Positions 57,384-64,000 of a stretch of DNA of 64,000 bases are shown here, piece after piece. The notes under the pieces are model-generated. The model saw only the letters and a list, made by a program, of their open reading frames with translations. It ran no database searches and was not told where the DNA came from. Every line of letters starts with the position of its first letter. The first letter of the stretch is position 1. This DNA is from Cellulomonas wangsupingiae (lineage in GTDB: Bacteria > Actinomycetota > Actinomycetes > Actinomycetales > Cellulomonadaceae): assembly GCF_024508275.1 (NCBI RefSeq), contig NZ_CP101989.1, forward strand, positions 2,914,001-2,978,000. The letters are read 5' to 3'. The translations under genes and the position numbers were made by a program.

Positions 57384-57962
57384 TCAGGACAGGACGGGGC
57401 TCAGCGCCGCGAGGAGCCGGGCCGTCACGTCGTCGACCGCGCCCAGGCCGTCGACCTGGACGAGCAGGCCACGGGCTGCGTAGACCTGCGAGATGGGGGC
57501 CGTCTGCTCGGCGTAGACGTCGAGCCGGTGCCGGACGACGTCCTCGGTGTCGTCCGCGCGCCCCTCGATCTGAGCGCGACGCGTGAGCCGCTCGACGACC
57601 ACCTGCGCGTCGACCGTCAGCTCGAGCGCGATGTCGAGCGCGTGCCCGGCGGCCGCGAGGATCTCGTCCAGCGCCGCGACCTGGGCCACGTTGCGCGGGT
57701 ACCCGTCGAGCAGGAACCCGTCGACCGCGTCCGCCTGGGCCAGGCGGTCACGGACGAGCTCGTTGGTCAGCTCGTCCGGGACGAGCGACCCCGACGCGGT
57801 GATGTCCTGCACCCGGCGTCCGAGCTCGGTGCCGTTCTTGATGTTGGACCGGAAGATGTCGCCCGTCGAGATGGCCGGGACACCCAGCCGATCCGCCAGA
57901 CGGACGGCCTGCGTACCCTTCCCCGCTCCGGGGGGGCCGAGCAGGACCAGACGTGCGCTCAA
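57384..57962 (-). CDS. adk: Adenylate kinase
   Basis: A 192-aa short-type adenylate kinase. The P-loop is GPPGAGKGTQ (9-18); ISTGDIFRSNI and FLLDGYPRN follow. The LID is the short form without zinc cysteines (EGRADDTEDVVRHRL). The only start that retains the strand before the P-loop is TTG 57962, overlapping the secY stop (TTGA); upstream in-frame codons lie inside secY. Confidence 0.95.
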   Translation of the reverse strand: MSARLVLLGPPGAGKGTQAVRLADRLGVPAISTGDIFRSNIKNGTELGRRVQDITASGSLVPDELTNELVRDRLAQADAVDGFLLDGYPRNVAQVAALDEILAAAGHALDIALELTVDAQVVVERLTRRAQIEGRADDTEDVVRHRLDVYAEQTAPISQVYAARGLLVQVDGLGAVDDVTARLLAALSPVLS

Positions 57963-59254
57963 CGCAAGAACCCTTCGTAGTGCCGCTGCTGAAGCTGGGA
58001 CTCGATCTGCTTGACGGTCTCGAGGCCGACGCCCACGACGATGAGGATCGACGCCCCGCCGAACGGGATGTTGGTGCCCACGCCGAGGACGATGAACGCG
58101 ATCGTCGGGATCAGCGCGACCAGGGCCAGGTAGATCGAGCCCGGCGCGGTGATCCGCGTGATGACGAAGTCCAGGTACTCGGCCGTGGGACGGCCCGCAC
58201 GGATGCCGGGGATGAACCCGCCGTACTTCTTCATGTTGTCCGCGACCTCGTCCGGGTTGAACGTGATCGCCGTGTAGAAGTAGCAGAAGAAGATGATCAG
58301 CAGCAGGTAGATCCCGATGTGCAGCGGCGCACCCGGGTCCGCGAGGTTCACGCTGATCCACTGCACCCAGCCCGCGGTCGCGTCGCCGAACTGGGCGATG
58401 AGCGTCGGCACGGCCAGCAGCGAGGAGGCGAAGATGACCGGGATGACGCCGGCCATGTTGATCTTGATCGGGATGTAGGTGCTCGACCCGCCGTACATGC
58501 GGCGGCCCACCATGCGCTTGGCGTACTGGACCGGGATGCGGCGCTGCGACTGCTCGACGAAGACGACGAGCCCGATGACCAGGACGACGACCGCCAGGAC
58601 GGCGATGAACTTGCCGGCACCGCCGGCGCCGCCGGCGATCGACCACATGGCGCCGGGGAACGACGCGGCGATCGACGTGAAGATGAGCAGCGACATGCCG
58701 TTGCCGACGCCGCGCTCGGTGATGAGCTCGCCGAGCCACATGATCAGGCCGGTGCCCGCGGTCATCGTGATGACCATGATGAGCAGCGTGATCGGCGTGT
58801 CGTCGGGGATGACCTCGAGGCTGCAGCCCTGGAACAGGTTGCCGGAGCGCGCGAACGTGATGATCGTCGTCGACTGCAGGATCGCCAGGCCGATGGTCAG
58901 GTACCGCGTGTACTGCGTGAGCTTCGCGGTGCCGGACTGGCCCTCCTTGTGGAGCTCCTCGAACTTGGGGATCACCACGCGCAGGAGCTGGACGATGATG
59001 CTGGCCGTGATGTACGGCATGATCCCGAGCGAGAACACCGACAGCTGCAGCAGCGCGCCGCCGCTGAACAGGTTGACCAGGCCGAGCAGGTCGTTGTCGG
59101 CGGTCTGCTCGATGCAGGCCTGCACGTTCGGGTAGCTGACACCAGGGGTCGGCAGGAACGACCCGATGCGGAACACCACCATCATGCCGATGGTGAAGAG
59201 CAGCTTGCGCCGCAGGTCGGGCGTCCTGAACGCCCGAACGAATGCACTGAGCAC
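57959..59254 (-). CDS. secY: Preprotein translocase subunit SecY
   Basis: A 431-aa ten-helix channel protein. Hallmarks are SFLPTPGV, LFSGGALLQLSVFSLGIMPY, ITERGVGNGMSLLIF, GGSSTYIPIKINMAGVIPVI and NMKKYGGFIPGIRAGRPT, the last on the cytoplasmic loop that binds SecA/ribosomes. ATG 59254 is 75 nt from the preceding gene. Upstream is a surface-protein locus rather than rplO, so its promoter must be in that gap or within the locus. Confidence 0.98.
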   Translation of the reverse strand: MLSAFVRAFRTPDLRRKLLFTIGMMVVFRIGSFLPTPGVSYPNVQACIEQTADNDLLGLVNLFSGGALLQLSVFSLGIMPYITASIIVQLLRVVIPKFEELHKEGQSGTAKLTQYTRYLTIGLAILQSTTIITFARSGNLFQGCSLEVIPDDTPITLLIMVITMTAGTGLIMWLGELITERGVGNGMSLLIFTSIAASFPGAMWSIAGGAGGAGKFIAVLAVVVLVIGLVVFVEQSQRRIPVQYAKRMVGRRMYGGSSTYIPIKINMAGVIPVIFASSLLAVPTLIAQFGDATAGWVQWISVNLADPGAPLHIGIYLLLIIFFCYFYTAITFNPDEVADNMKKYGGFIPGIRAGRPTAEYLDFVITRITAPGSIYLALVALIPTIAFIVLGVGTNIPFGGASILIVVGVGLETVKQIESQLQQRHYEGFLR

Positions 59255-59329: not shown

Positions 59330-60271
59330 CTACCCCGCAGACGGCGGAGCGCCGCACCCGTGCGGCTCCCGGGGTCGTCCGGCCGGCCCCGGCGCCCCCG
59401 GTCCGGCGCCGTTCGCGCCGTCGACGGACGGCGCCACCGGCAGCCGGCCGGCCTCGCGCCGGGCGTCGCGACGACGCCGGGCCCCACCCAGCAGCATCGA
59501 GCCGGTCCCGATCGCGACCACCGCGACCAGCGCGGCCCGCAGACCGTGCAGGACGGTGTGGGCGAGCGGCCCCGCACCGGCCCCTCCTGCCGCCTGGACC
59601 TCCGCGATCGTCACGATGGTGTCGGCCTGCGGCGTCACGGCGTCGACGTCGGTCCCCGCGGGCCCGGAGGGCGACGTGGCCGCGGCCCTGGCCCACGTGC
59701 TCCCGTCCAGCCGCAGCACGACCTCGTACGTGGCCTCCCGCGGCGCGACGTTCGCACGGTTGCCCGACGTCGCGTCCGTGGCGAGCGCGGTCACCACGGT
59801 GACCTCGGTGCTCGCCCCGCGCGCGAGCAGCACGTCGACCACGGGCGTGGCACCCGCCGTCGCGAGCCGACGGAACGACGAGTGCCCGTCCCCCGACGCG
59901 GTGCGCCACGTGAGCGTGAGGTCGGCGTAGAAGTCCACCTCCGGCGGACCGTCGGGGAGGTCGGCCTCGGGGGCGTCGGGGTCGAGGAGCTGCACGTCCT
60001 GCACCCAGCCGCGCAGCACCGCGTCGGTCGGGCCGGCGTTGGTCACGGTGATCGTCCTGCCCTGGACGCCGCCCGGCACCACGACCGGCGCACCCGAGAA
60101 CGTCGCGGAGCTGGCCGTGGCCGGCGGCCCGTCCCACGCGAGGTCGACGGACGGCCCGTCCCACGTGGTCACGAGCTCGTCGCCGGACGCCGCCGCTGCG
60201 CCGGCCGGCACCACGAGCGCCAGGAGGACACCGGCCACGAGGGCCCGGGAGGCGGGGGCCGCCCGCGTCAC
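59330..60271 (-). CDS. Secreted membrane-anchored protein of the SipW locus
   Basis: A 313-aa protein with no recognised family. From GTG 60271 it has a normal Sec signal (ASRALVAGVLLALVVPAGAAAA, cut near residue 28), an extracytoplasmic beta-rich domain (about 30-225) with VVVPGGVQGRTITVTNAG, a C-terminal membrane helix (about 243-262) followed by an arginine cluster (ARRRRDARRE), and a Pro/Gly-rich cytoplasmic tail. No LPXTG motif is seen. It overlaps the preceding gene by 4 nt. It may anchor or cap the products of the upstream genes. Confidence 0.62.
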   Translation of the reverse strand: MTRAAPASRALVAGVLLALVVPAGAAAASGDELVTTWDGPSVDLAWDGPPATASSATFSGAPVVVPGGVQGRTITVTNAGPTDAVLRGWVQDVQLLDPDAPEADLPDGPPEVDFYADLTLTWRTASGDGHSSFRRLATAGATPVVDVLLARGASTEVTVVTALATDATSGNRANVAPREATYEVVLRLDGSTWARAAATSPSGPAGTDVDAVTPQADTIVTIAEVQAAGGAGAGPLAHTVLHGLRAALVAVVAIGTGSMLLGGARRRRDARREAGRLPVAPSVDGANGAGPGAPGPAGRPREPHGCGAPPSAG

Positions 60272-60987
60272 CGGCCGGGCCGGAACGTGGTGAACGTGAA
60301 CGTCAGGCGGTGCGTCGGCTCGTCCGCCGGCACGAGGGCCCTGCCCACCGACGCGCTCCACCGGTCCTCGTCGGTCACGCGCTGCGGCGTGGCCCCGCCG
60401 GAGGTGGCGACGCCGGCGTCGACGGACGCCGTGCTGTCGTACGTGCCCTGCACGGGGTCGAAGGTCGCCACGAGGCACCAGTACTCGCTGGTCAGCCGTC
60501 GGGTGTCGCTGTAGTCGGCCGGGACGGGCGTCGACGCGCCGGCGTCGGGACCGGCCACCGTGGTCGTGCAGGCGGCGGGCCCGGCCACCTTGACGAGCCG
60601 CACGTCCGACTCCCCGAGGATGCCGCCCGCGATGTGCCGCGTCACGGTGTACCGCAGGCCCCGGTGCCCCTGCGCGAGCGCGTCGACCTGCACGGGGACG
60701 GCGATCGACCCGGTCGCGAGGAGCGTCGCGGCGGCGGCGGGACCGAACGTCAGGTCCACGGTGTCACCGGGGCCCGTCGCGTAGTCCGTGAGCGTCCCGG
60801 GCTCGCCGGGGGGCCCGACCCCGAACACGACGACCCCGGCGGGCATGCCGGCCGTGACGGTCTCGACGTCGCGCCACAGCGCGAGCGTCCCGCCGCCGAC
60901 GACCCCCACGAGCGCGGCGAGCGCGACGGTGAGGGCCAGCACCCCGGCCGTGGGCAGGCTGACGACCCGGTCGCGCAGGCCGCTCAC
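60268..60987 (-). CDS. Protein with SipW-type signal peptide (second accessory)
   Basis: A 239-aa protein. The N-terminus is a hydrophobic segment ending GGGTLALWRD (about 31-40), resembling the alternate signal peptide of SipW substrates, where a short aromatic motif follows the helix. The remainder is beta-rich with two cysteines (AACTTTV, YWCLVA). No further family is recognised. GTG 60987 overlaps the previous stop (GTGA). Confidence 0.6.
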   Translation of the reverse strand: MSGLRDRVVSLPTAGVLALTVALAALVGVVGGGTLALWRDVETVTAGMPAGVVVFGVGPPGEPGTLTDYATGPGDTVDLTFGPAAAATLLATGSIAVPVQVDALAQGHRGLRYTVTRHIAGGILGESDVRLVKVAGPAACTTTVAGPDAGASTPVPADYSDTRRLTSEYWCLVATFDPVQGTYDSTASVDAGVATSGGATPQRVTDEDRWSASVGRALVPADEPTHRLTFTFTTFRPGR

Positions 60988-61595
60988 GGCGCGAGCCCGT
61001 CGTCCCGCACCTGCCGCAGGTCGACCTGGATCGTCCCGCCGACCCGGGTCGCGGGCTGCCCGGCCAGGGTGGACGGTGCCACCACCCGGTCGGCGCCGTT
61101 CCACACGAGGGTCGCCACCAGCGTCCACTCCCCCGTGCCGAGGGGCAGGCTCGCCCCGGCGCCCGACGGCAGCGTCAACGGCGTGCCGAGCGGGGCCGGG
61201 GCGCTGGGGACGCCCGACGGCGGCGTCACGACGTACGTGCCCTCGACGCCCGCCGGGACGGGCCCGGCCGGCAGCCAGGAGACCGTGAGACGCGCGCGCA
61301 GGTTGTCGCCCTCCAGGGTCGTCCGGAAGCGTTGCGTGACCGTGAAGGAGTCGCCCGGGACCGCGAGGTGGCCGGCGGTCCCGTCCGCTCCCGACGCGAC
61401 GGCGTGGCCGACGTGGCCCGGGGAGGTCTCGGCCCACCGGACGTCACCGACCAGCTCGAGATCGAGGTCCCCGGAGCGCAGGACGCCGATCGACGCCTCG
61501 GCGTCGGTCGACCACAGGGCGTAGGTGGTGCTGCTCATGAGGGACGCCGTGAGCACGGCGGCCACCGCCAGGGCGGCGAGGCGGCGCCGGCTCAT
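60984..61595 (-). CDS. SipW-dependent signal-peptide protein (TasA/CalY-like accessory)
   Basis: A 203-aa protein. After a short basic start (MSRRRL), the helix AALAVAAVLTASLMSSTT ends at YALWSTDAEASIGVLRSGDL, the clear SipW-type pattern. The mature part has EGDNLRARLTVSW, shared with the TasA-like protein (EGDNLAAQLDVSN), so the two proteins are probably related. ATG 61595 overlaps the sipW stop by 4 nt. Confidence 0.72.
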   Translation of the reverse strand: MSRRRLAALAVAAVLTASLMSSTTYALWSTDAEASIGVLRSGDLDLELVGDVRWAETSPGHVGHAVASGADGTAGHLAVPGDSFTVTQRFRTTLEGDNLRARLTVSWLPAGPVPAGVEGTYVVTPPSGVPSAPAPLGTPLTLPSGAGASLPLGTGEWTLVATLVWNGADRVVAPSTLAGQPATRVGGTIQVDLRQVRDDGLAP

Positions 61596-62203
61596 GCGTC
61601 GACGTCCGCGGCGCGCCGGTCCTCGTCGGACGCGGTCCCGTCCGTGGCTGCGGCACCGTCCGCGCGCGCCTGACGACGCCCCCGGTCGGGGCTGAGCACC
61701 ATCCACGCGCCGTACACCAGCAGGACGGCGGCGCCCGCCATGACGACCGTGGAGCGGTGGGCGCCGACGGCCACCATGACGTGCCCGACGTCGGGCACGT
61801 GGTAGACGACCTCGGCCTTGATCTGCTCCGGGCGCAGGGGCTCGTCGTCGGTGTCGTTGGCGTCACCGCGCGTCACCCAGCGCGGGCCGTCGGACGTCGA
61901 GCGGACGGCGACCACGCGGTGCGTGACGAGCGTGGGGTCCTCCGGGAAGGGCTGGAACGACACGACGTCGCCCACCTCGATCTCGGCCGGCACGTCCTTC
62001 ACGCCGCGGACGACGACGACGTCACCGGGCTCGTAGGTCGGCACCATCGACCCGGTGAGGACGGTGAGCGCGACGCCGTCGAGTAGCCGCGGGACCAGCG
62101 CCAGCGCGACGGCCAGTGTGAGCACCACGACGACCGCGGCCGTGCTGAGCACCGACAGGACGGTCGGCAGGACGCGGCGGCGCGCGGTGCGGGGCCGGTT
62201 CAT
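61592..62203 (-). CDS. sipW: SipW/ER-type signal peptidase I
   Basis: A 203-aa membrane peptidase. A first helix (about 15-40) precedes the nucleophile S52 in LTGSMVPTYEPGD. The general base is H95 in LVTHRVVAV rather than lysine, and GDANDTDDEP carries the box-E aspartates; this Ser-His arrangement is the ER/SipW class. A second helix (about 143-170) and an acidic tail end the protein. It probably processes the neighbouring SipW-type precursors. Confidence 0.88.
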   Translation of the reverse strand: MNRPRTARRRVLPTVLSVLSTAAVVVVLTLAVALALVPRLLDGVALTVLTGSMVPTYEPGDVVVVRGVKDVPAEIEVGDVVSFQPFPEDPTLVTHRVVAVRSTSDGPRWVTRGDANDTDDEPLRPEQIKAEVVYHVPDVGHVMVAVGAHRSTVVMAGAAVLLVYGAWMVLSPDRGRRQARADGAAATDGTASDEDRRAADVDA

Positions 62204-62247
62204 GGCGTCCTCCTGTCGGTGCGGGGTGGTAGGTCGGTCGGGTGGGG

Positions 62248-62285
62248 ACCCGGGCGGCGCGCCGCGGAGGCGCCGCCGCCCGGGT
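62248..62285 (-). terminator. Hairpin between the TasA-like gene and sipW
   Basis: Arms ACCCGGGCGGCG (62248-62259) and complement (62274-62285), starting 6 nt after the stop of the TasA-like gene. It could reduce read-through into sipW so that the structural protein is made in excess. Confidence 0.5.
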
Positions 62286-62291
62286 GGTCCG

Positions 62292-62921
62292 TCAGGCGCC
62301 GGCGACCTGCGTGAGGCTCACGCCCACCTCGCCCAGCTGGTAGACGGTCGCGGACATGTCCGCCGCCTTGTCCGAGGCGAAGTCGACGGTCACGACCACG
62401 TGCACGTCGGCGGCCGTCGTCTTGTCGACCGCCACGTTGCCGGCCGCGCCGCGCAGGTCGGCGCCGGCGTCGGGGCCCACGAACGTCAGCTTGCCGCCGA
62501 CGAGCTTGCTCGTGATCTCGTTCCTGTTGCCGTCGTAGATCTTGAACGCCGCGGTGCCACCGTTCGCGGCGACGACCCGGAGGTTCGAGACGTCGAGCTG
62601 CGCGGCGAGGTTGTCGCCCTCGAGCGCCACGTCGAACGAGTACGTCGCCTCCGCGCTGTCACCCGGGACGGTGCGCCACGTCGCCAGGTCGATCGTGTGC
62701 CCGGCACGCCCCGTCACCGGGGTGGTCGCGGCGGCGTCCGACCGGCCGGCCGTCACGTCGTACCAGACCGGCGTGCTGACACCCGTGATGTCGAGCTTTC
62801 CGGAGGTGATGGTGGCGCCGTTCTGCGTGAGGGTCTCGCTCCACGTCGCGAACGTGGTGCCGCCCGCGAGCAGCGCGATGCCGGCGACACCGGCGAGGAC
62901 GCCCTTGGTCTTCTTGTTCAT
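62292..62921 (-). CDS. TasA/CalY-like protein with SipW-type signal peptide
   Basis: A 209-aa secreted protein. MNKKTKGVLAGVAGIALLAG followed by TTFATWSE (22-29) is an alternate-type signal peptide typical of SipW substrates such as TasA and camelysin. The mature part is beta-rich with no cysteine: SGKLDITG, then EGDNLAAQLDVSN and KLTFVGPDAGADLRGAAG. It lies first before sipW, with a hairpin after it. I infer it to be the main fibre subunit; no structural evidence is available. Confidence 0.78.
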   Translation of the reverse strand: MNKKTKGVLAGVAGIALLAGGTTFATWSETLTQNGATITSGKLDITGVSTPVWYDVTAGRSDAAATTPVTGRAGHTIDLATWRTVPGDSAEATYSFDVALEGDNLAAQLDVSNLRVVAANGGTAAFKIYDGNRNEITSKLVGGKLTFVGPDAGADLRGAAGNVAVDKTTAADVHVVVTVDFASDKAADMSATVYQLGEVGVSLTQVAGA

Positions 62922-63038
62922 GGTCGTGCCCTTCTGAGAGGAGAGGTCTGCCCGGAGGCGGTGTCCGAGACGTCCGGAGGGCGCCTCGAGGGGTGGATCA
63001 GGTCGGTCGGTCTGGTCGCCGGTCAGGGGGCTGCGTCG

Positions 63039-64000
63039 TCACAGCACCCCCCTGGACCGGCAGCCGATCTCCTGGCCGGGGGCCAGGGACGGGATGGTGA
63101 CGGACGTCCCGGCGGGGATGTCGGTGCGTCCCGGGCACGCGATGGCGGCGTCGCCCGTGGTCGTGGCCCCGCCGACGGTGACGGCGGCGTAGGCGTCACG
63201 CAGCCGGATGTCGACGAGGGTGGTCTGGCCGGTGTTGCGCACCGTGTACCGCCGGACGATGTGCGTCCCGGCGGGCCGCCGCTCGCCGGTGGGGATCGGC
63301 GACGCGAACGCCGTGTCGTCGGCCAGGAACGTCTGCGTGACGACCTCGACACCGGGCCGCAGGTTCACCACGGTGCACGTGTGGCTGCGTCCGCGCTCCA
63401 GCCTGACGTCGTACGGGTTCCCGGTGGCGGTCACGGCCGCCGCGCCGCCGTCGTCGCGGCGGCAGGTCACGGTGTCGACGACGTAGCCGGCGGGCACCGC
63501 CTCCGTCACGCGCACGACGCGCGTCGCGTCGGGCACGGCGACCGTCGCCGCGGCGGAGCCGCCGGGTCCGGTGACGAGCGGGGCCGCACCCAGCGCGTCG
63601 ACCGTGAACTCCCAGCCCGCGGTCGGTACCCCCGCGCCCGGCGCCGCGCCCTCGGGCACCGCCACGCCGACGAGGGTGAGGGTCGTGGGTGCCACGTAGC
63701 TGCTGACGAAGGTGCAGACGAGCGGGGCGGCAGCGGCCGTCGCGGCCTCCGGGACGTTCTCCAGCACGACGCTGCGCGCGCCGGGACCGACCGTGGCGCC
63801 CGGCGCCAGCACGGCGCCCCGCCCGTCCCGGCAGGTGATCGAGGAGAGCTCCCACGAGGCCGCCGGTGCGTCCGCGGTGAGCACGACGCGCTCGCGTCGC
63901 GCGAGGACCGTGCCCGCGGCGGTCGACACGGTGCTCCCCGGGCCGGTGACGGCCGTCGGCGACAGCGTGTACCTGGCCGCCGGTGCGGCGCCGCGCTCCG
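63039..64000 (-). CDS. Large secreted surface protein, C-terminal part (5' end outside window)
   Basis: At least 320 residues are open to the window edge; the start lies beyond it. The visible part is a chain of beta-rich, Thr/Val/Gly-rich modules, each with a paired cysteine: SITCRDGRG with LVCTFVSSY, VTCRRDDG with SHTCTVVN, and IACPGRTD with IGCRSRGVL at the C-terminus. VTRVTEAVPAGYVVDTV-like segments recall SdrD/SpaA-type surface repeats. No cell-wall sorting signal is present at the C-terminus. It is the nearest upstream gene of the SipW locus (117 nt). Confidence 0.65.
   Translation of the reverse strand, partial: ERGAAPAARYTLSPTAVTGPGSTVSTAAGTVLARRERVVLTADAPAASWELSSITCRDGRGAVLAPGATVGPGARSVVLENVPEAATAAAAPLVCTFVSSYVAPTTLTLVGVAVPEGAAPGAGVPTAGWEFTVDALGAAPLVTGPGGSAAATVAVPDATRVVRVTEAVPAGYVVDTVTCRRDDGGAAAVTATGNPYDVRLERGRSHTCTVVNLRPGVEVVTQTFLADDTAFASPIPTGERRPAGTHIVRRYTVRNTGQTTLVDIRLRDAYAAVTVGGATTTGDAAIACPGRTDIPAGTSVTIPSLAPGQEIGCRSRGVL

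Follow-up and report, generated by a model that had tools for sequence, protein, structure and literature searches.

The cassette between rplO and secY

The window is the whole 64,000-nt stretch that we analyzed. It corresponds to positions 2914001-2978000 of the source genome, that of Cellulomonas wangsupingiae, which is a single contig of 4.12 Mb. Six co-directed genes (A1 to A6) lie on the minus strand of the window, between rplO and secY (Table 1). A first-pass annotation had reported contiguous minus-strand genes before secY, and their positions are as it claimed: there are six genes, with A1 starting outside the window. Neighboring genes from A3 through A6 share 4 bp at each junction (A3/A4, A4/A5, and A5/A6), and 88 bp separate A2 from A3.

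Table 1. Features of the cassette and its neighbor (positions within the window)
Feature	Position	Strand	Remarks
A1, adhesin-like surface protein, 3' part	63039..64000	-	5' part lies beyond the window
A2, putative main subunit of the fibre, with a SipW-type signal	62292..62921	-	Above cut-off for TIGR04089 and TIGR04088; P-G-D box
Hairpin after A2	62248..62285	-	16 pairs, one bulge
A3, SipW/ER-type signal peptidase	61592..62203	-	TIGR02228; conserved Ser52 and His95
A4, second SipW-substrate-like protein, resembles A2	60984..61595	-	TIGR04089 45.2 bits, below 60
A5, third protein with SipW-type signal	60268..60987	-	TIGR04088 21.8 bits
A6, exported, with an anchor region at its C-terminus	59330..60271	-	
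Sorting-signal region of A6: LAHTV, hydrophobic segment, RRRR	59468..59566	-	
secY	57959..59254	-	adk is next

The order A1-A6 is kept in all 17 cassettes at 15 Cellulomonas loci (L001, which is the window's locus, and L043-L056), and dN/dS for the six genes is 0.15-0.49 (window versus L043), so the cassette is more than a chance arrangement. A permuted set is clear at 4 of the 6 distant loci that we fetched (L058, L059, L061, and L062). There, the order is a large protein, an A4-like protein, a protein of ~308 amino acids, an A2-like protein, SipW, and an A6-like protein. The gene sets went through a base-composition filter that removed some genes, among them A6 at L051 and L054, A5 at several loci, and some second copies.

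A SipW-type peptidase and its putative substrates

Among NCBIfam models, A3 matches TIGR02228 (75.5 bits, cut-off 51.85) and is short of the cut-off for the Bacillus SipW equivalog, NF046067 (61.2 vs. 190). SipW uses a Ser-His pair; Ser52 and His95 of A3 are invariant in 18/18 aligned proteins. A2 is above cut-off for both TIGR04089 (alternate-type signal peptide protein; 86.7, cut-off 60) and the signal model TIGR04088 (20.3, cut-off 19). A5 exceeds the cut-off for TIGR04088 (21.8) and is under it for TIGR04089 (11.2), while A4 scores under the cut-off for TIGR04089 and has no match to TIGR04088. The proposed SipW-class peptidase beside signal-bearing proteins is supported by A3, A2, and A5. 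Of the two more proteins to which SipW-type signals had been ascribed, A5 has one by this measure, but A4 lacks a TIGR04088 match. Across relatives, TIGR04088 matches 19/20 A2, 2/20 A4, and 3/11 A5 proteins at E ≤ 0.01. TasA, as a control, scores 38.0 for TIGR04088 and 16.7 bits for TIGR04089, the latter over residues 3-52 only. NCBIfam gave no match for A6 or for the part of A1 that is within the window.

The same genome has two further SipW loci. One (L010) encodes an A2-like protein above the TIGR04089 cut-off, SipW, a kinase, a regulator, and an anchored protein; the other (L011) encodes one substrate and a SipW-type peptidase. We had taken a frame in L010 (9990-10631) to be sortase-like and rejected it because it matches no family.

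Similarity of the putative subunits to TasA

The cassette had been described as including a TasA-like protein. In a profile comparison, A2 and TasA are significantly similar in the signal and first mature residues only (45 columns, E = 2.5e-4, probability 43%); the TasA signal in this comparison was checked by profile only. Beyond the signal, mature TasA aligned to the A2/A4 profile with E = 0.1 (hhalign), and the comparisons of TasA to the A5 and A6 profiles gave E = 0.61 and 0.16. For the camelysin profile (PF12389, cut-off 22.5), A2, A4, and A5 score 15.0, 14.1, and 13.2, all under the cut-off, and the A2 match is confined to the signal region; the TasA control scores 129.1 bits over its whole length. 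At E ≤ 1, PF12389 matches 14/20 A2 proteins (best 0.0011). For NF046066 (cut-off 450), A2 scores 12.5 and the TasA control 513.8. Searches of the PDB by sequence with the A2 and A5 profiles found no TasA.

The predicted structure of A2 (pLDDT 78.8, pTM 0.79) has a disordered N-terminus (pLDDT < 50 for the first 14 mature residues). When we compared it to 350,542 PDB chains with Foldseek, FimG ranked first (E = 0.013) and the TasA fibre second (E = 0.026). Both matches are non-significant, with TM-scores of 0.27-0.34 (0.32/0.27 for the TasA fibre). The model of A5 is mostly beta, and no TasA is among the best 50 of its 537 fold matches. Two cysteines of A5 are invariant (11/11 aligned).

A2 and A4 share a P-G-D box: P86 and D88 of A2 are invariant in 20/20 proteins, as are G81 and D82 of A4 (also 20/20). 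P66-G67 is conserved in A6. The P-G-D box is the counterpart of the proline box (P62) of TasA, which excerpts of PMC10151520 single out as the best conserved stretch of the interface between protomers. Overall, the signal, the first mature residues, and the P-G-D box resemble TasA, but the camelysin profile and the mature comparison do not extend this to the rest of the protein, and the link to TasA is only suggestive. Given the non-significant fold matches, the failed comparisons of mature profiles, and the scores for the camelysin profile, we would say, also suggestively, that A2 "works like" TasA rather than that it "is a member" of its family.

The first-pass annotation also stated that SipW and TasA build amyloid fibres in Bacillus. 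The excerpts consulted describe TasA fibres as formed by donor-strand exchange, not as amyloid (PMC9674648), and TasA as having several forms (PMC10151520). Whether TasA is amyloid is itself debated in these papers, and we rejected amyloid fibres as stated.

An exchangeable adhesin-like protein

A1 is 627 amino acids long (given the start codon that we chose). By eye, it has a Sec-like signal and no C-terminal anchor. A1 proteins have two types of N-terminal part. Those of type I (from the window, the first copy at L043, and L044-L047) align along most of their length, and the A1 of the window has SpaA_4 prealbumin-like domains. The two type II proteins that we scanned have CshA_NR2 (E = 4e-33 and 8e-33), GEVED, and DUF11 domains. 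CshA is a streptococcal adhesin.

What the window's A1 has in common with type II is a C-terminal part of ~110 amino acids. All 7 tblastn matches between the types at E ≤ 1e-4 are confined to residues 416/503-627. Four type II A1s (those of the second copies at L043 and L045, and those at L048 and L050) have no tblastn match at 1e-4 and were identified via weaker blastp matches. A1 is an adhesin-like, exchangeable surface protein. (Fibrillar adhesins are treated in PMC9210967, of which we used excerpts.)

A variant sorting signal in A6

A6 had been described as a membrane-anchored protein. It does have an anchor region, but this is not a plain anchor: the C-terminus is a variant sortase sorting signal. 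The 19 aligned A6 proteins end in LAxTG (14), LPxTG (3), or LAHTV (2: the window and L043, a close relative). The substrate motif of class E sortases is LAXTG, according to the part of PMC5148588 consulted. The A6 of the window fails this motif, with LAHTV for LAxTG, and has the hydrophobic stretch and positive tail. The genome encodes a class E sortase near 24 kb (NF033747, 246.8 bits, cut-off 160). The cassette has no sortase gene; all three PF04203 matches in the genome are elsewhere. By eye, the C-termini of A2, A4, and A5 lack LPxTG. A6 looks like a wall-anchor protein.

Although we favor an anchored fibre (see below), A2, A4, and A5 might instead be matrix proteins or loose polymers released into the biofilm. 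A1 and A6 would then be surface proteins in their own right, and there would be no organised anchored fibre. The BsaA polymers of C. perfringens occur mostly outside the cell and do not bind tightly to the wall (excerpts of PMC7395162), and the A6 of the source genome has LAHTV, both of which fit with loose polymers. We consider this unlikely, as 17 of the 19 A6 proteins have LAxTG or LPxTG, the six genes recur together, and A1 retains its C-terminal part where the remainder has been exchanged.

A hairpin after A2

In the window, the 88-base gap between A2 and A3 has a predicted fold of -43.2 kcal/mol (z = -2.5). We searched the Cellulomonas cassettes for stems, allowing one mismatch and no bulge (L052, with masked bases, was not judged). 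In 13 of the 16 cassettes judged, a hairpin with 13-15 pairs begins no more than 10 nt from the A2 stop (p = 0.003 for 12 of these and 0.007 for one, with 300 shuffles each). The other three (the window and the first copies at L043 and L045) have a bulged stem, for which the no-bulge search gave 7-8 pairs (p = 0.29-0.41). The z-scores for the entire gap range from -4.4 to -0.4 across 14 Cellulomonas rows. At more distant loci, the hairpin is present in 1 of the 5 tested and absent from 4. Because it lies between A2 and the overlapping A3-A6 block, the hairpin suggests that A2 is made in excess over A3-A6.

By eye, the stems differ in sequence among the cassettes. Another element, ACTTTCG-N-GGGTGAAAG, is upstream of A1 in 8 of 14 carriers and occurs once in the source genome. 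Comparing positions 1900-8400 of L001 to Rfam gave a single match, under its gathering score.

The hairpin bears on another alternative, a surface complex without any filament, in which A6 would carry a small, fixed-size stalk of A2, A4, and A5 with A1 on display. This could explain why one operon encodes three dissimilar exported proteins that bear SipW-type signals, and why one of them (A5) shows no detectable likeness to TasA. The suggested excess of A2 argues against a fixed-size stalk, as do the disordered N-terminus of A2 and its pilin-like top fold matches (albeit non-significant). We view the stalk as quite improbable.

Distribution and the rplO-secY site

We found A5, by its profile, in 15 of 81 Cellulomonas genomes. 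In 14 of these it is in the rplO-secY gap, and in the fifteenth (G189) it is elsewhere. Named records with relatives of A5 are from C. phragmiteti, C. sp. KH9, C. avistercoris, C. humilata, C. uda, C. composti, and one MAG. With A6 as the query, matches came from 25 of the 200 genomes that we sampled across the family. Phylum-wide, TIGR04089 matches 4 of 396 genomes (including the source genome), 2 of them above cut-off. As the evidence favors both SipW-type secretion and conservation of the gene set, the outcome that would have refuted the first-pass annotation did not arise, and its interpretation is partly supported.

In 78 of the 81 genomes, rplO and secY could both be placed on a single contig. 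The gap between them is 144-690 bp in 64 genomes and 6.0-12.5 kb in 14, and all 14 of the long gaps hold A5. (Our count of gene orders does not include the fourteenth filled site, in G613.) G186 and G187 each contain a tandem pair of dissimilar cassettes, and in G185 a second cassette is located elsewhere. We built a tree from 53 of the 81 genomes, including 39 of the 64 with short gaps (quick search, midpoint rooting). At least 4 changes, which may be gains or losses, are needed to explain the state of the site. Some short-gap kin of carriers have wider gaps (341-690 bp, compared to a median of 175 across 63 genomes without A5), and these might be scars of cassette loss.

At 39 short-gap and 14 filled sites, we saw by eye that rplO is followed by a hairpin (a putative terminator) and that a conserved stretch (a putative leader) leads up to secY, with the cassette, if present, in between. 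Because of these flanking elements, expression of the ribosomal genes and of secY is probably unaffected by the cassette. The placement directly before secY had been given, along with the larger gene set, as a reason to suspect a distinct surface-appendage system. The position is correct, but as 64 of the 78 genomes have a short gap with no cassette, the proximity to secY has no clear functional meaning. The idea that A3 serves general or enzyme secretion in an operon shared with secY, which the cassette adjoins on the same strand, is very improbable and we rejected it, given this survey of gaps (with the cassette in just 14), the flanking hairpin and conserved stretch, and the two other SipW loci in the source genome.

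We saw no sign of carriage by phages (one weak match to A3 in 50,697 records) or by plasmids (5 matches to A3 in 72,556 records). For the match on a Pseudarthrobacter plasmid, the surrounding annotation names no such cassette. TasA had no plasmid match at E ≤ 0.01.

Proposed function

The cassette is genuine and conserved, and it tells us more than the first-pass annotation had described. Its most likely function is an adhesive, SipW-dependent fibre. Specifically, we estimate a probability of roughly 60% that these are genes for an adhesive cell-surface fibre with SipW-type signals, its own peptidase, an anchor protein, and an exchangeable adhesin. A2 and, less abundantly, A4 and A5 would be exported by Sec via their SipW-type signals and released by A3. 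A2 would then polymerise into the shaft, and its freed N-terminal segment would probably insert into the next subunit, as in TasA. A1, with its ordinary signal, would be seated on the fibre via its conserved C-terminal part and present the exchangeable binding domain. A6 would tie the fibre to the cell. In most relatives, this would depend on LAxTG and a class E sortase; in the source genome, with LAHTV, A6 might stay in the membrane. The content and order of the genes, their signals and sorting signals, the swapped domains of A1, the hairpin, and the distribution were observed directly, while polymerisation, the donor strand, the assignment of proteins to shaft, tip, or base, and adhesion are inferred.

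A more specific proposal is tentative. The cassette may encode an actinobacterial hybrid pilus, with a TasA-like, SipW-released, donor-strand shaft, a LAxTG base anchored by class E sortase, and an exchangeable tip adhesin. These would be encoded together in a cassette that has been gained or lost repeatedly at a single, apparently neutral position in the ribosomal spc cluster.

Cellulomonas includes cellulose degraders. A cassette that joins an anchor and an adhesin would show how such a fibre is fixed to the wall and targeted in actinobacteria, and its presence or absence at one site provides matched strains for comparison. We found no title on such a locus among the listed open-licence papers (mostly judged by title and opening of the abstract) on SipW/TasA in actinobacteria, on SipW in Cellulomonas, on camelysin and pili, on Cellulomonas pili or adhesion, or on SipW and sortases.

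Comparison to known systems

Sortase-assembled pili of Gram-positive bacteria have a shaft, a tip adhesin, and a wall-anchored base. The cassette likely has the same split. Unlike those systems, it has no sortase gene, and A2, A4, and A5 have no LPxTG, so we do not class it with them.

As in tapA-sipW-tasA of B. subtilis, a SipW-type peptidase is encoded beside exported proteins with SipW-type signals. The cassette differs in having three substrates, the adhesin-like A1, and a protein with a sorting signal (A6). Its subunits resemble TasA in the signal, first mature residues, and P-G-D box, but not in the camelysin score or the mature comparison.

The sipW-bsaABCRSD locus of C. perfringens likewise combines SipW with several putative secreted proteins, and BsaA forms filamentous polymers, which do not need the neighboring sortase and are not tightly bound to the wall (PMC7395162). 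That locus also resembles L010, which has a kinase and a regulator nearby. The excerpts of PMC7395162 describe no adhesin or LAxTG anchor.

The TasA/CalY/CapP heterofilaments of B. cereus are likewise built from two TasA-type subunits and an accessory protein at the cell wall, but are described as sortase-independent, unlike the sortase-type anchor proposed here (excerpts of PMC13082335). For the SipW fibres of B. subtilis, B. cereus, and C. perfringens, the excerpts describe no sortase-type anchor or tip adhesin, with CapP at the cell wall. If the cassette does encode a SipW-dependent fibre with a sortase-type base, then this would be new among these described systems.

Variation between rplO and secY

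Two loci from other Cellulomonas genomes (L043 and L045) each have two dissimilar cassettes in tandem, with a gap of about 12 kb between rplO and secY. In five short-gap relatives of the carriers (L099 and L116-L119), the gap is 341-690 bp, as compared to a median of 175 bp for the 63 genomes without the A5 marker. These wider gaps are possibly scars of cassette loss. The sorting-signal protein A6 has the variant motif LAHTV both in the window and in L043. Upstream of the adhesin-like gene A1, the element ACTTTCG-N7-GGGTGAAAG, which occurs just once in this genome, is found in 8 of 14 carriers and is a possible regulatory site.

Features of the Cellulomonas wangsupingiae genome (G000:C1, its contig)
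Feature	Position	Comment
LAHTV of A6	window 59552-59566	replaces LAxTG
ACTTTCG-N7 element	G000:C1:2979110-2979132	upstream of A1, beyond the window
Second SipW locus	L010:7939-13425	in G000:C1:3928000-3945000
Third SipW locus	L011:5680-7183	in G000:C1:3164000-3178000

Other SipW loci

The second SipW locus of this genome encodes an A2-like protein, a further exported protein, SipW, a sensor kinase, a response regulator, and an anchored protein; one reading frame there had no family match. The third encodes a SipW-type peptidase and a single camelysin-like substrate, which scored 18.3 bits against Pfam M73 (under the 22.5 cut-off). A layout that resembles the Cellulomonas cassette occurs in a firmicute, on a plasmid of Enterococcus wangshanyuanii (L138), where the genes for SipW, a pair of proteins of the BsaA family, and one large protein are consecutive.
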